The notes under the pieces are model-generated. The model was not told the origin of the DNA and ran no database searches. It was given only the letters and a program-made list of their open reading frames with translations. Positions 1 to 54,502 of a stretch of 64,000 bases of DNA are shown in pieces. The stretch's first letter is position 1. Each line of letters begins with the position of its first letter. The translations under genes were made by a program, and so were the position numbers. Location of the stretch: assembly GCA_022800315.1 (NCBI GenBank), contig JAAWQC010000008.1:1-64000 (forward strand), given 5' to 3'. Source of the DNA: Clostridiales bacterium. Lineage in GTDB: Bacteria > Bacillota > Clostridia > Oscillospirales > Acutalibacteraceae.

Positions 1-20
1 GTGAATGGTACAATAGACGA

Positions 21-100
21 AAAGGAAGAATTACCGAGTAATTCTTCAGCACCGGTTCTCCAGAACGTATCCTGATCTGGGACGTACAGGAACCGGTGAG
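21..100 (+). repeat. Two-hairpin structured element in the thyX leader
   Basis: Hairpin A pairs GAAGAATTAC (25-34) with GTAATTCTTC (38-47), a perfect 10-bp stem with a 3-nt loop. After 2 nt, hairpin B pairs CACCGGTTC (50-58) with GAACCGGTG (90-98). The thyX ribosome site follows at 107-112. The same two-hairpin order, 2-nt gap and orientation towards the downstream gene recurs in the 97-bp repeats at 39602-39860. It may be a leader RNA or a dispersed palindromic repeat; the sequence alone does not decide. Confidence 0.6.
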
Positions 101-120: not shown

Positions 121-888
121 ATGATACATGTTACCCTGCTGGCCCATACCCCCGAACCGGAAAAAACGGTGGCGGCGGCGGCCCGGCTGTGTTATTCCCC
201 TGCCACCATCGACGAGCTGATGGAGGGGATGACGGAGGAAAAAACAGCGTCCTTTGTGGACATGCTGTCTCAGCTCGGCCATGAAAGCCCCATCGAGCAC
301 GCCAGCTTCACCTTTGGCATTGAGGGCGTGTCCCGTTCCCTGCTGGCCCAGATTACCCGTCACCGCATGGCATCCTTCAGCGTGCAGAGCCAGCGGTATG
401 TGGCGGAAAATCGTTTCGAATACGTCGTTCCGCCTGAGATCGACGCCCTGCCGGAGGCAAAGGCGGAGTATCTCCGCGCTATGGAAGAGGATCAGCGGCA
501 TTATGAGCGCCTGACCGCTCTGCTTAAAGAAAAGCATCTGGAGGAAAAACTCAGCGCAGGAATGGAGCCGAAGGCCGCCGCCCGCGCCGCAGAAAAACAG
601 GCCATTGAGGATGCCCGCTTCGTACTGCCCAACGCCTGCACCACCAAAATGATGGTGACCATGAACGCCCGCAGCCTGCGCAACTTTTTCCGTCTGCGCT
701 GCTGCAACCGCGCCCAGTGGGAGATACGGGAGCTGGCGGAGCAGATGTGCGCCCTGTGCCTGAAGGCGGCGCCCCATCTCTTTCGCGGCGCCGGCCCCGG
801 CTGCGTATCCGGCAGCTGTCCTGAGGGAAAGATGTCCTGCGGCCGCGCCGCTGAGATGCGCGAGCGCTACGCCGCCGGCCGCGGCTGA
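121..888 (+). CDS. thyX: Flavin-dependent thymidylate synthase ThyX
   Basis: ThyX makes dTMP from dUMP using 5,10-methylene-tetrahydrofolate and FAD/NADPH, replacing ThyA. The family signature RHRxxxxxS is present (R80-H81-R82 then S88), followed by QSQRY. The 255-residue length is typical. The ATG at 121 is chosen over the TTG at 118 because GGGAGG (107-112) lies 8 nt before it. It opens a run of closely spaced + strand genes; the next gene, a thymidylate-kinase-like protein, begins 35 nt later and continues the dTMP to dTDP route. An unusual two-hairpin element lies just upstream. Confidence 0.95.
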   Translation: MIHVTLLAHTPEPEKTVAAAARLCYSPATIDELMEGMTEEKTASFVDMLSQLGHESPIEHASFTFGIEGVSRSLLAQITRHRMASFSVQSQRYVAENRFEYVVPPEIDALPEAKAEYLRAMEEDQRHYERLTALLKEKHLEEKLSAGMEPKAAARAAEKQAIEDARFVLPNACTTKMMVTMNARSLRNFFRLRCCNRAQWEIRELAEQMCALCLKAAPHLFRGAGPGCVSGSCPEGKMSCGRAAEMRERYAAGRG

Positions 889-6336: not shown

Positions 6337-7560
6337 ATGAGTGAGAAAAGACCCGAAATTTTATCCCCGGCGGGGGACAGGGAATCCCTGCTGGCCGCTC
6401 TGCGCTACGGGGCGGACGCCGTATACCTGGCGGGCCGCTCCTTCGGTATGCGGGCGGGCGCGGCCAACTTCGACGGGAACGGCCTGTGCGAAGCGGTGAG
6501 CCTTGCCCACGGTGTGGGAGCGAAGGTATACGTGGCTTGCAATACCCTGCCGCGGGACCAGGAGCTGCGCCGTCTGCCCGCCTTTCTGGAACAGGTGGAG
6601 GCGGCGGGAGCCGACGCGGTCATCGCCGCCGACCTGGGGGTGATGGCCCTTGTCAAACGGTACGCGCCCCGCTGCGCTTTGCACGTATCGGTACAGTTCG
6701 GGGTGGTCAATGCCGCCGCCGCGGCCCAGCTGTGGGAGCTGGGAGCCTCCCGGGTGGTGCTGGCACGGGAGCTTTCCCTCGACGAGATTGCGGTTCTGCG
6801 CCGGGAGACGCCGGCGGAACTTGAATTGGAGGCTTTTGTCCACGGTTCGATGTGCCTGTCGGTTTCGGGCCGATGTCTGCTGTCCTCCTCCCTAACCGGC
6901 CGGGACGCCAACCGGGGCGACTGCGCCCAGCCCTGCCGCTGGCGGTATTCGCTGGTGGAGGAAAAGCGACCGGGTCTGTATTTCCCGGTGGAATCGGGGG
7001 AAGAGGGCAGCTATATCCTGGACGCCAACGACCTGTGCATGATCGGCCATGTGGCGGCGCTGGCGCAGGCGGGAGTGACCTCCTTCAAGATCGAGGGCCG
7101 CGCCAAAGCCCCCTATTACGTAGCGGCGGTGACCAATGCCTACCGGCTGGCCGCGGACGGCTATGCCGCCTCCGGTTATTCCGCCGGTTATCAGCCCCCC
7201 CTCTGGCTGTCGGAGGAGCTGGACAAGGTCAGTCACCGTCCTTACGGCACCGGCTTTTATTACGGTACGCCGCGGCAGAATACCGCGGCGGGCGGGTATA
7301 TCCGCCGATGGGAGGTGGCGGCGGTGGTGCTCGACTGGGAGGACGGCGTGCTGCGGGTGTCCCAGCGCAACCGGTTTTTCGACGGCGAAGAGCTGGAAGT
7401 TCTGCTTCCTGGTGAGCGGCCCTTTACCGTGTCGGCTTCCCCCTTAACCGATGGGGAGGGGAAGCCCGTCCCGTCGGCAAACCATCCGGAGATGACCGTG
7501 TCCTTCCCCTGCCCGCGGCCGGTGCCGGCAGGGACCCTGCTCCGCCGGAAAAAGGATTAG
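6337..7560 (+). CDS. Peptidase U32 family protein (TrhP-like)
   Basis: The 407-residue protein has the U32 core: ILSPAGDRESLLAAL near the start, EAFVHGSMC, SGRCLLSS and RGDCAQPCRW, which supply the four conserved Cys thought to hold an iron-sulfur cluster in this family. The start at 6337 was chosen because it gives the conserved MSEKRPEILSPAG opening; the frame is open further upstream without family similarity. Bacterial U32 proteins hydroxylate RNA (TrhP for ho5U34 in tRNA, RlhA for 23S rRNA). The mltG neighbour matches the Bacillus yrrL-yrrN/O arrangement, so a TrhP role is inferred. Confidence 0.9.
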   Translation: MSEKRPEILSPAGDRESLLAALRYGADAVYLAGRSFGMRAGAANFDGNGLCEAVSLAHGVGAKVYVACNTLPRDQELRRLPAFLEQVEAAGADAVIAADLGVMALVKRYAPRCALHVSVQFGVVNAAAAAQLWELGASRVVLARELSLDEIAVLRRETPAELELEAFVHGSMCLSVSGRCLLSSSLTGRDANRGDCAQPCRWRYSLVEEKRPGLYFPVESGEEGSYILDANDLCMIGHVAALAQAGVTSFKIEGRAKAPYYVAAVTNAYRLAADGYAASGYSAGYQPPLWLSEELDKVSHRPYGTGFYYGTPRQNTAAGGYIRRWEVAAVVLDWEDGVLRVSQRNRFFDGEELEVLLPGERPFTVSASPLTDGEGKPVPSANHPEMTVSFPCPRPVPAGTLLRRKKD

Positions 7561-38679: not shown

Positions 38680-38723
38680 TTTTACAAAGCCACCCCCTGC
38701 CGTTAAAACGGGCAGGGGGTGGC
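38680..38723 (-). terminator. Terminator of the EEP gene, stop codon in its loop
   Basis: GCCACCCCCTGCC (38689-38701) pairs with GGCAGGGGGTGGC (38711-38723). On the minus strand TTTGTAAAA follows. The stop codon at 38703-38705 lies in the loop, so the last coding triplets form one arm. Confidence 0.88.
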
Positions 38724-39542
38724 CTTATGTTCGGGAGGGGTCTCTTTCAGACTGAGGACGGCTACCAGGGGATAGTGGTCGGAGGGAAACCGGCCGTCGG
38801 TGCGGGTGGTGTCCACATAGGCGTCCCTCACCTGGAATTCGTCGCTGATGAAAATATAGTCGATAGGGCGGCGCCGGCCCCGGCCCCGGAAGCCGTGGAA
38901 GGTGCTGGTGATCGCCTTGGCGCAGGGGAGGGTATACAGGTTGGTCAGGTGGATATCGCCGTAATCGTGGAGGTTTTCGCTCAGGATGCGGATAGCCTTG
39001 CTGTTCGGCCCGGCGTTCAGATCCCCCATCAGGATCACCGGAAGTCTTTCGACCTCATTGAGCTGGTGGATGTATTCGAGGATGGTCCGTACGCTCAGGG
39101 TGCGGGCGGGGGCACAGATGTGGTCGAAGTGGGTATTGAATACCCGTATTTTTTGCCCCAGCGCTTCCACATACACCTCGCAGACGGTGCAGATACGGGG
39201 GAACAGGGCAAAATAGGCCCGGCTGCCGCTTTTGTCGGGATGCTTGGATAACCAGAAGGTACTGCTGAAGGTCAGGTCGGTCCCCTCGTTGCGCAGCAGG
39301 ATCGCCGACTGCTCGTTCTGCAGGCGCTTGGTGCGGCCCAGCCCGAACACGCTGTATTCCTCCAGCCGGCTGACGATGTCCGCCTTCATATCCGGCATCA
39401 TCTCCTGCACGCCGACGATAGCGGCGCCGGATTCCCGAATAATGCGGGAAACGGCGTCCCGCCGGTACCGCCAGCTGTTGGCACGGCTGAAAACAAAATC
39501 GTGCTTTAAATTGAAGGATGCCACCTTGATGGCCGATTCCAT
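38703..39542 (-). CDS. Endonuclease/exonuclease/phosphatase family protein
   Basis: A 279-residue EEP-fold enzyme. Motifs are VASFNLKHDF near the start, IVGVQEMM (metal Glu), VFNTHFDH, LMGDLNAGP (Asp/Asn), RPIDYIFIS and SDHYPLVA (catalytic Asp-His). Members cleave phosphodiester bonds in nucleic acids, sphingomyelin or inositol phosphates; substrate cannot be told. There is no signal peptide. ATG 39542 is set by GGGAGG 7 nt upstream. The 97-bp structured repeats lie in its upstream region. Confidence 0.92.
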   Translation of the reverse strand: MESAIKVASFNLKHDFVFSRANSWRYRRDAVSRIIRESGAAIVGVQEMMPDMKADIVSRLEEYSVFGLGRTKRLQNEQSAILLRNEGTDLTFSSTFWLSKHPDKSGSRAYFALFPRICTVCEVYVEALGQKIRVFNTHFDHICAPARTLSVRTILEYIHQLNEVERLPVILMGDLNAGPNSKAIRILSENLHDYGDIHLTNLYTLPCAKAITSTFHGFRGRGRRRPIDYIFISDEFQVRDAYVDTTRTDGRFPSDHYPLVAVLSLKETPPEHKATPCPF

Positions 39543-39601: not shown

Positions 39602-39860
39602 ATACACCGGTTCCTTAACGCTTTGGGAATGGGATACGCGGTTGGGAACCGGTGGCGAAGAATACCTTCGGCATTCTTCCTGAACATTGCTTTATCCCAT
39701 ACACCGGTTCCTTAACGCTTTGGGAATGGGATACGCGGTTGGGAACCGGTGTCGAAGAATACCTTCGGCATTCTTCCTGAACATTGTTTTATCCTATACA
39801 CCGGTTCCTTAACGCTTTAGGAACGAGATGTGTGGTCGGAAACCCATATATGTTATTTTA
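39602..39860 (-). repeat. 97-bp structured tandem repeat, two full copies plus a degenerate third
   Basis: Units begin near 39602, 39699 and 39796, an exact 97-bp period. Copies 1 and 2 differ at about three positions; copy 3 decays after about 40 nt. Each unit has CACCGGTTCC...GGAACCGGTG (39605-39614/39645-39654; 39702-39711/39742-39751) and GAAGAAT...ATTCTTC (39657-39663/39673-39679; 39754-39760/39770-39776) closed by a C-TTCG-G loop. Read towards the EEP gene the order matches the element before thyX. Confidence 0.88.
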
Positions 39861-44219: not shown

Positions 44220-44258
44220 TCCTGCGGCCGGTATGGTCAGGACCTGCTTATTTTCCGC

Positions 44259-44332
44259 TTTCGGATGCATTTTGGATACCTTTCGGATGCAAAAAGGATA
44301 CGACCCGGTGTTACGATGCCATTAAGGGCATC
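44259..44332 (+). promoter_or_regulatory. Direct 22-bp repeats upstream of the lipoprotein-ABC operon
   Basis: Two 22-bp units (44259-44280 and 44281-44302) share TTTCGGATGCA and GGATAC at the same offsets. A dyad GATGCC (44315-44320)/GGCATC (44327-44332) follows, reusing the GATGC core. Spacing of two helical turns suggests a regulator array. A T-run ends at 44356. Confidence 0.5.
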
Positions 44333-53196: not shown

Positions 53197-53350
53197 CAGA
53201 TCATGCTTTATCGTTGCGGCAGCCGGCAGCATGAGATGATGCAGGGGACGTCCGCCCCTCCCCTGCAACTGAAAGCGAAAAGACGGGACAGAGGCGACAG
53301 AATACAGTCGGTTGGCTAGCGGTAAGGGGGAGCGGGTTACCGTAGCCCGA

Positions 53351-54502
53351 TCACTCGGCCTGCCGGCGCTTATGTTCGTACATGGCGGCGTCGGCCCGGC
53401 GAAGGGCCGCCTGCAGATCGTCGCCGCCTTCCGGGTCGTATAGAGCGTAGCCGGCGGCCAGGGAGGTTTCGATCTCCCAGTCCTCACGCAGTTGTCCGAA
53501 TTCCTTCTGTACGCGGGCGATGAAAGCCTGCGCCGCCTGTGCCGACCCCTGGGGCAGGATCACGGCGAATTCGTCGCCGCCGATGCGGTAGGCCGCCGCT
53601 TCGCTGCCGCAGGCGGACTGGATGGCGCGGGCCGCCCGCTGGATATAGCGGTCTCCGGCGCTGTGGCCGAGGGTATCGTTTACAGCCTTGAGCCGGTTGA
53701 GGTCGAGGGAGACGATCCCCAACCGGGCGGTATTTCCAGCCGCCATGTTCCGTATATCCACCTCGAAGGCGTTGCGGTTTTTCAGCTGGGTCAGTTGATC
53801 GGTGTTGGACAGGTCACGGAACAGCGGGTTGGAAATCCGCCGGAAAAATATCACCGCGAACACCACCGACAAAAGACAGAACAGCGTAATGACTAACGGG
53901 GTCAGGATACGGAGCATGAGATAGGTGTTGTACTGATGGTCCGCCGCAAACTCGATGCCCATCACACCCACCACCCGATCCCCCTCGTGTATGGGCAGAT
54001 AGGAGATGAAGATTTTTCCCCAGTCGGTGGTTTTGATCCGGTCGGGCAGCACCGACATGCCGGACAGGGCCAGCGCCATATCGTCCCGTATCTCCGGTTC
54101 GATGGGGTCGCCTGGATAACGGAAGTCGGAAGCCTCAGGGTCCAGCCCGTCCACCACATAGATCAGCTCACCAGCGGCGTTTTCCTTGGCGGTATACAGG
54201 TAGCGGACCCCGGCGGTATTTTTGGCCAGATGGAGCAGCTGCTGCATTTCGCGGTAGGAATCCAGACCGGCGTCCTCACGGGTGTTGATGGTTTCAAAGG
54301 TGGTTTTATCCAGCGTTTCGTCCAGCGAAGCATGGAGGGAGGAGACCCGTTCCCGAAGGCTGTCGATCATGTCGCTGTAGGTGATCCGGTAGCCTACCGT
54401 AAACACGCACAGGGTGGAAAAGAGCACGATCAGGATGGTGAAAGCTGACACCTGTATATCCACCCGCCGGACCGGCAAACGGTTTTCCCCTTTTTTCACC
54501 AT
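53351..54502 (-). CDS. Membrane sensor diguanylate cyclase
   Basis: A 383-residue protein with two helices (about 18-38 and 195-215) around an extracytoplasmic sensor domain (about 40-190, Cache-like: GVRYLYTAKENAAGELIYV, VVGVMGIEFAADHQY) and a C-terminal GGDEF domain with LTQLKNRNAFE and an intact active loop RIGGDEFAV. It should make c-di-GMP. It sits just downstream of an EAL-domain gene, 31 nt apart. Confidence 0.93.
   Translation of the reverse strand: MVKKGENRLPVRRVDIQVSAFTILIVLFSTLCVFTVGYRITYSDMIDSLRERVSSLHASLDETLDKTTFETINTREDAGLDSYREMQQLLHLAKNTAGVRYLYTAKENAAGELIYVVDGLDPEASDFRYPGDPIEPEIRDDMALALSGMSVLPDRIKTTDWGKIFISYLPIHEGDRVVGVMGIEFAADHQYNTYLMLRILTPLVITLFCLLSVVFAVIFFRRISNPLFRDLSNTDQLTQLKNRNAFEVDIRNMAAGNTARLGIVSLDLNRLKAVNDTLGHSAGDRYIQRAARAIQSACGSEAAAYRIGGDEFAVILPQGSAQAAQAFIARVQKEFGQLREDWEIETSLAAGYALYDPEGGDDLQAALRRADAAMYEHKRRQAE

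Follow-up and report, generated by a model that had tools for sequence, protein, structure and literature searches.

A two-hairpin element before thyX belongs to a dispersed, promoter-associated repeat family of an Avimonas genome

The first hundred nucleotides of the 64,000-nucleotide stretch of DNA analysed here (the window) carry two consecutive hairpins in front of thyX, and a matching pair lies on the opposite strand before a putative nuclease gene near 39.6 kb. Do these hairpins form a regulatory leader common to two genes, or are they two copies of something more widespread? An earlier note, made from the letters of the window alone, had favoured a functional RNA (leader, processing site or regulator) and had named a dispersed palindromic repeat as the alternative.

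The arrangement described before thyX is present: hairpin 1, a 2-nt gap (48-49), hairpin 2 and a ribosome site follow one another at 25-112. The two-hairpin core at 24-98 reads GGAAGAATTACCGAGTAATTCTTC AG CACCGGTTC...GAACCGGTG, and the ribosome site AGGGAGG (106-112) is located between hairpin 2 and the thyX start at 121. We refer to the repeat to which this core belongs as family A. The features at this end of the window are as follows:

6..14, plus strand: predicted promoter, an extended -10-like TGGTACAAT, 9 nt before hairpin 1 (AATGGTACAAT, offset 9)
24..98, plus strand: family A element (two-hairpin core), thyX copy; covariance-model match G000:C69:24-98, E 2.4e-18
25..47, plus strand: hairpin 1, GAAGAATTAC/GTAATTCTTC, 10 bp; read from the sequence, pairs counted in the alignment
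50..98, plus strand: hairpin 2, CACCGGTTC.../GAACCGGTG, loop of about 30 nt; read from the sequence, pairs counted
121..888, plus strand: thyX (thymidylate synthase ThyX), downstream of the element; start conserved in relatives

The same order and gap recur on the minus strand before the second gene, as had been claimed, in the form of a tandem array and not of a single copy. This array consists of two full family A copies and a decayed remnant of hairpin 2, with a period of 97 bp:

39799..39844, minus strand: decayed hairpin-2 remnant at the upstream end of the array
39778..39798, minus strand: array spacer with a degenerate -10, TATAGGATAAA
39702..39777, minus strand: family A element, tandem unit 1; covariance-model match
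39681..39701, minus strand: array spacer with a degenerate -10, TATGGGATAAA
39605..39680, minus strand: family A element, tandem unit 2, nearest the gene; covariance-model match
38703..39542, minus strand: putative endonuclease/exonuclease/phosphatase (EEP) gene that the array precedes; name of the family taken from the earlier note

Another part of the window, 44258-44301, holds a short tandem repeat with an 11-nt unit, CTTTCGGATGC/ATTTTGGATAC.

The genome that contains the window is that of an Avimonas species, a gut bacterium, and is a draft of 2.45 Mb in 74 contigs, 97.6% complete. The window's two sequences match dozens of places in it by nucleotide search, with E-values down to 1e-45. 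Anchored on the junction between hairpin 1 and hairpin 2, family A comprises about 41 copies at about 26 intergenic sites, a site count obtained after the contig-end halves of one array were joined by hand, judged by identical units. Many copies lie at contig ends, as is expected because repeats break assembly, and the draft collapses repeats there. Tandem units are 93-97 bp long and are made of a 74-76-nt core and a spacer of about 20 nt; the spacers are alike within one array and different between arrays. Many dispersed, non-coding, intergenic copies of less than 200 bp place the family in the broad MITE/BOX/REP-like kind, and at some 41 copies the fallback of the earlier note, a dispersed palindromic repeat, is the better description. 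The element before thyX is one copy of a genome-wide repeat and not the private switch of two genes. Dispersal on this scale suggests that family A is mobile. A domain search of the 97.6% complete genome gave no match to the PF01797 (Y1/RAYT, HUH) transposase.

Chance hairpins, or intrinsic terminators shared between loci, would account for the presence of hairpins, but copy number and alignment refute them, with 41 copies and nucleotide matches of the strength given above. No T-run follows hairpin 2 in the copies read, and the copies are mostly placed 5' of genes; we give this explanation practically no credence. A known RNA family is likewise ruled out, since neither family A nor its companion, family B, matches an Rfam covariance model at gathering score, and no sub-threshold match is convincing.

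We compared the sites in two further genomes of the genus, G001 and G002. In the thyX region G001 has exactly the sequence of record CAJFNR01 (Candidatus Avimonas narfia), and G002 that of MAG JAAWCO01. Both genomes are without A at the orthologous thyX, ispG-polC and galE sites, with other sequence present at thyX and ispG-polC, and the orthologous ligA and asnS sites, read in G001 only, are also without A; the sites without A are diverged and are not clean empty sites. Absence from the same-genus sites read indicates that the insertions are lineage-specific. A covariance-model search of the thyX leaders of 80 relatives detected no A near thyX. A specific regulator common to thyX and the EEP gene is not supported by these results and was rejected: family A is multi-copy, lies at about 26 sites before unrelated genes and is absent from the orthologous sites read.

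An exact-pattern search of the GTDB collection gave no match to A outside the source genome or a near one, and a nucleotide search with A gave none in the other genomes of a 60-genome set. Diverged relatives came into view with covariance models. Model R1, built from the A copies of the source genome, detects diverged two-hairpin units in G002 (four matches, best E 2e-6), a genome with a version of its own at numerous loci, where a composite query gives 50 matches. R1 also matches G135, of another genus, and G192, at E-values of about 0.005-0.009, and the homology of these units to A is uncertain; those of G135 (contig 29, ~6758-6967; L126/L259) stand in tandem, each with two hairpins and a length of about 103 nt, and their spacer is AT-rich. 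G246, G089 and G491, from other families within the order, gave weak matches that seem to be strong hairpins of unrelated origin and were left uncounted.

Family B is joined to A in composite loci and has a different layout. An extended -10 is followed by a hairpin, whose arms are wholly different between copies, and by a three-way junction closed by GAAGAAT/ATTCTTC; the unpaired letters TGTCGG and TCCTGC are largely kept, giving the motif TGTCGG...CCTCCTGC. Loci in the source genome include C63, C72, C67 and C13 (L078, L079, L080, L081 and others). At C43 and C54, A is embedded in B with both joints identical at the two loci, and C33 (~12650), C29 (~5660) and C36 (~107730) have a common third joint, TTTTTTAAAA / AAGTTTTTTAAAA, leading from the 5' half of B to A. 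Joints common to separate loci imply that the composites were copied as units. The junction model R3, from the B copies of the source genome and G002, has 27 double-changed pair cells (0 of 500 shuffles), to be read with the fact that N letters in the B alignment (A8) were set by hand to align one stem and that its pair counts lean to the given structure. R3 finds B in 5 of 398 genomes of the bacterial family: all three Avimonas (the source genome, G001 and G002), and G134 and G628 of other genera. A nucleotide search with B gave no match in other genomes of a 98-genome set. Most B copies are fronted by a -10-like motif and a palindrome, and the palindrome is unrelated between species.

The stems of family A show compensating changes with pairing kept, as had been claimed from the two loci of the window. 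Standard pairs fill 93.7% of the pair cells in 30 distinct A copies of the source genome, and in 17 cells both sides have changed, a number that 0 of 500 shuffles reach. Addition of the G002, G135 and G192 matches gives 37 double-changed cells over 11 of 20 pairs, counted in a model-fitted alignment (A6) that leans to the given structure; the MAFFT alignments of mixed species (A2 to A4) were out of register and gave way to A6. This covariation is a point in favour of a cis-acting leader RNA (a 5' mRNA stabiliser, RNase III site or regulator) that was recruited by mobility and kept for its RNA function. Covariation alone cannot decide between RNA and DNA, because palindromic DNA repeats also covary, and by itself it is no proof of a functional RNA. 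G-U mismatches in the A stems are not in excess over A-C mismatches (12 vs 11), and folding energy gives the sense strand no advantage over the antisense strand, with no difference for A (p = 0.57) and, for B, a tendency in the wrong direction for RNA-strand selection (p = 0.07). Small as these numbers are, near-equal G-U and A-C counts and equal strand folding give no sign of selection on one RNA strand, and both count against the leader RNA.

Orientation speaks on both sides of the same question. Gene directions are approximate calls from a simple codon-based gene caller without curated annotation; by these, the downstream gene is in sense at 21 of 26 A sites (p = 0.0025 vs 50%), and p is 0.04 against a 60% baseline, which is our own assumption. 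Restricted to sites between same-direction genes, with loci joined by hand, the bias of A is weak (7 to 2 sense). Family B is more strongly biased, with 29 of 31 downstream genes in sense and a ratio of 13 to 1 between same-direction genes. These biases favour a leader. Against it, five A sites are antisense or lie between convergent genes, and the matching module of G002 is in reverse order relative to its -10 motif and its genes, the gene on the hairpin-1 side reading away from the module at 10 of 11 scored sites. Where the earlier note proposed a fixed orientation 5' of genes, the family shows a mostly sense placement, with exceptions that are antisense or convergent. The refuting test set out in that note has a mixed outcome, in which covariation is present and orientation is biased but not fixed.

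Both families are associated with a promoter element. An extended -10 motif, TATGNTATAAT (at most two mismatches), stands 7-10 nt upstream in 17 of 40 A copies, against 1.1 expected from shuffled sequence, and just 3' of the core in 10 of 34, against 0.8 expected; the arrays C45, C50/C10 and C60/C35 are without it. Given the usual -10 spacing, the predicted start site would precede hairpin 1 of A by about 2-3 nt. The excess of -35 matches is weak for A (p = 0.08). For B, -35 matches at 16-18 bp spacing come to 3.35 vs 2.45 of 6, and 0 of 2000 shuffles are as high. The position of hairpin 1 just after the -10 box of A and the better-than-chance -35 matches of B again speak for a leader RNA. The -10 of B directly abuts the hairpin, so that a start 6-7 nt downstream would cut the hairpin arm, which speaks against hairpin 1 of B as RNA from that predicted promoter. 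The genes downstream of A are unrelated, and A is not conserved at the same genes across related species, as a cis-regulatory leader would be. The broader proposal of a functional leader RNA has partial support: it keeps its covariation, its mostly sense 5' position and its upstream -10, and is opposed by dispersal, by antisense and convergent copies and by the lack of an RNA-strand signature. We regard a leader RNA kept for its function as unlikely.

The reading that we prefer, with a probability of about two in three, is that A and B are small modular palindromic repeats of the BOX/Correia kind that are tied to promoters and become mRNA 5' leaders where they lie in sense. On this view the 75-nt two-hairpin unit is one member of a modular interspersed repeat of an Avimonas species, small and non-coding, that has dispersed to about 26 intergenic sites, grown into tandem arrays of core plus a spacer of about 20 nt, and recombined with B. 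Where A lies just 3' of a predicted extended -10 and points at a gene, that gene's mRNA would have A as its 5' leader. If the -10 is active, insertion may have side effects, in that the hairpins would act on the stability, processing or initiation of the transcript. Against this reading, the sense bias and the -10 association could reflect selection for leader function, some arrays are without the -10, and the genome gives no PF01797 match. Small palindromic repeats are already known in several bacteria; here two interacting modular families are found at promoters, with covariation that is strong at the level of single pairs. Should the predicted promoters be active, a mobile 5' hairpin would be carried by many mRNAs in these gut bacteria, which would offer a direct test case for the ways in which mobile repeats change mRNA ends.

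The flanks bear on how such repeats might insert. The -10 copies that flank one locus resemble each other more closely than they resemble those of other loci (p = 0.0004, with tandem copies counted), which fits either duplication of a -10 target or tandem growth. One explanation would be a folded single-stranded mobile element whose hairpins insert just 3' of -10 boxes, where the non-template strand is exposed in the open complex of RNA polymerase, duplicating or re-using the -10. It gains from the locus-specific flanks, from -35 matches that lie outside the element, from structure without RNA-strand bias and from an extended -10 that abuts B in three Avimonas genomes and two further genera with unrelated hairpin 1 sequences. 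It loses from the lack of an HUH/Y1 (PF01797) match in the source genome and from a flank test that includes tandem copies, and the -10 may just as well belong to the element itself. We think this mode of insertion very unlikely. Quite unlikely, too, is a wider class of mobile hairpin modules in Acutalibacteraceae-type bacteria, folded and specific for a single strand, whose insertion point would be just downstream of -10 boxes, on the strand that the transcription bubble exposes. Promoters would then be preferred landing sites and many mRNAs would acquire a structured 5' end; the modules would keep their architecture and, as in B (TGTCGG...CCTCCTGC), some of their unpaired letters, while stem sequences were replaced wholesale.

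Returning to the interspersed-repeat reading, the nearest known kinds are BOX, Correia/NEMIS, ERIC and YPAL (PMC3049150, PMC2229807, PMC2649163). Like A, BOX of Streptococcus pneumoniae is a small modular intergenic repeat with tandem internal units and strong predicted stem-loops, and it can be co-transcribed and can affect downstream genes (PMC3049150), as A may; the comparison covers these general features. Convergent gene pairs hold more BOX copies than expected (PMC3049150), whereas A, and B more strongly, tend to lie 5' of genes in sense, adjoining an extended -10. Correia repeat enclosed elements, or NEMIS, of Neisseria (PMC2649163, PMC2229807) are also dispersed and small; their ends can supply promoter sequence and their hairpin is placed in transcripts, as is predicted for A. 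Correia elements are framed by terminal inverted repeats (PMC2649163), while the two hairpins of A are internal, its ends are unlike each other, and the direct repeats that flank it resemble a -10. YPAL/RU-2 of Yersinia (PMC2229807) shares with A internal inverted repeats without TA ends and lineage specificity, and has flanking duplications that vary in size, as A may. Regions of dyad symmetry are the targets of YPAL (PMC2229807), and the flank of A is, unlike that of YPAL, a -10 promoter motif. The descriptions of BOX and YPAL hold no tie to a -10 promoter element (PMC3049150, PMC2229807).

REP/BIME/REPIN sequences with RAYT transposases (PMC2817692, PMC3733652) are likewise palindromic, extragenic and multi-copy and form mosaic arrays. 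Unlike them, A occurs in a genome without a match to the Y1 transposase (PF01797) and has TATGNTATAAT as its conserved flank; no GTAG/CGTC tag of the REP kind was noticed in the A copies read. A REP/RAYT system was rejected for A on the missing PF01797 transposase. We class A among the small interspersed repeats, as a new family whose promoter link makes it a variant, and do not count it as a regulator RNA.

A third two-hairpin repeat was observed in the source genome at C9 ~60-190 (L096) and C54 ~53330-53480 (L094). It consists of a GAAAATTCC hairpin, 2 nt and GACCACCGCC...GGCGGTGGTC, whose loop spans about 30 nt, and so has the architecture of A with other arms. G002 carries a diverged version of it (L245, L247).
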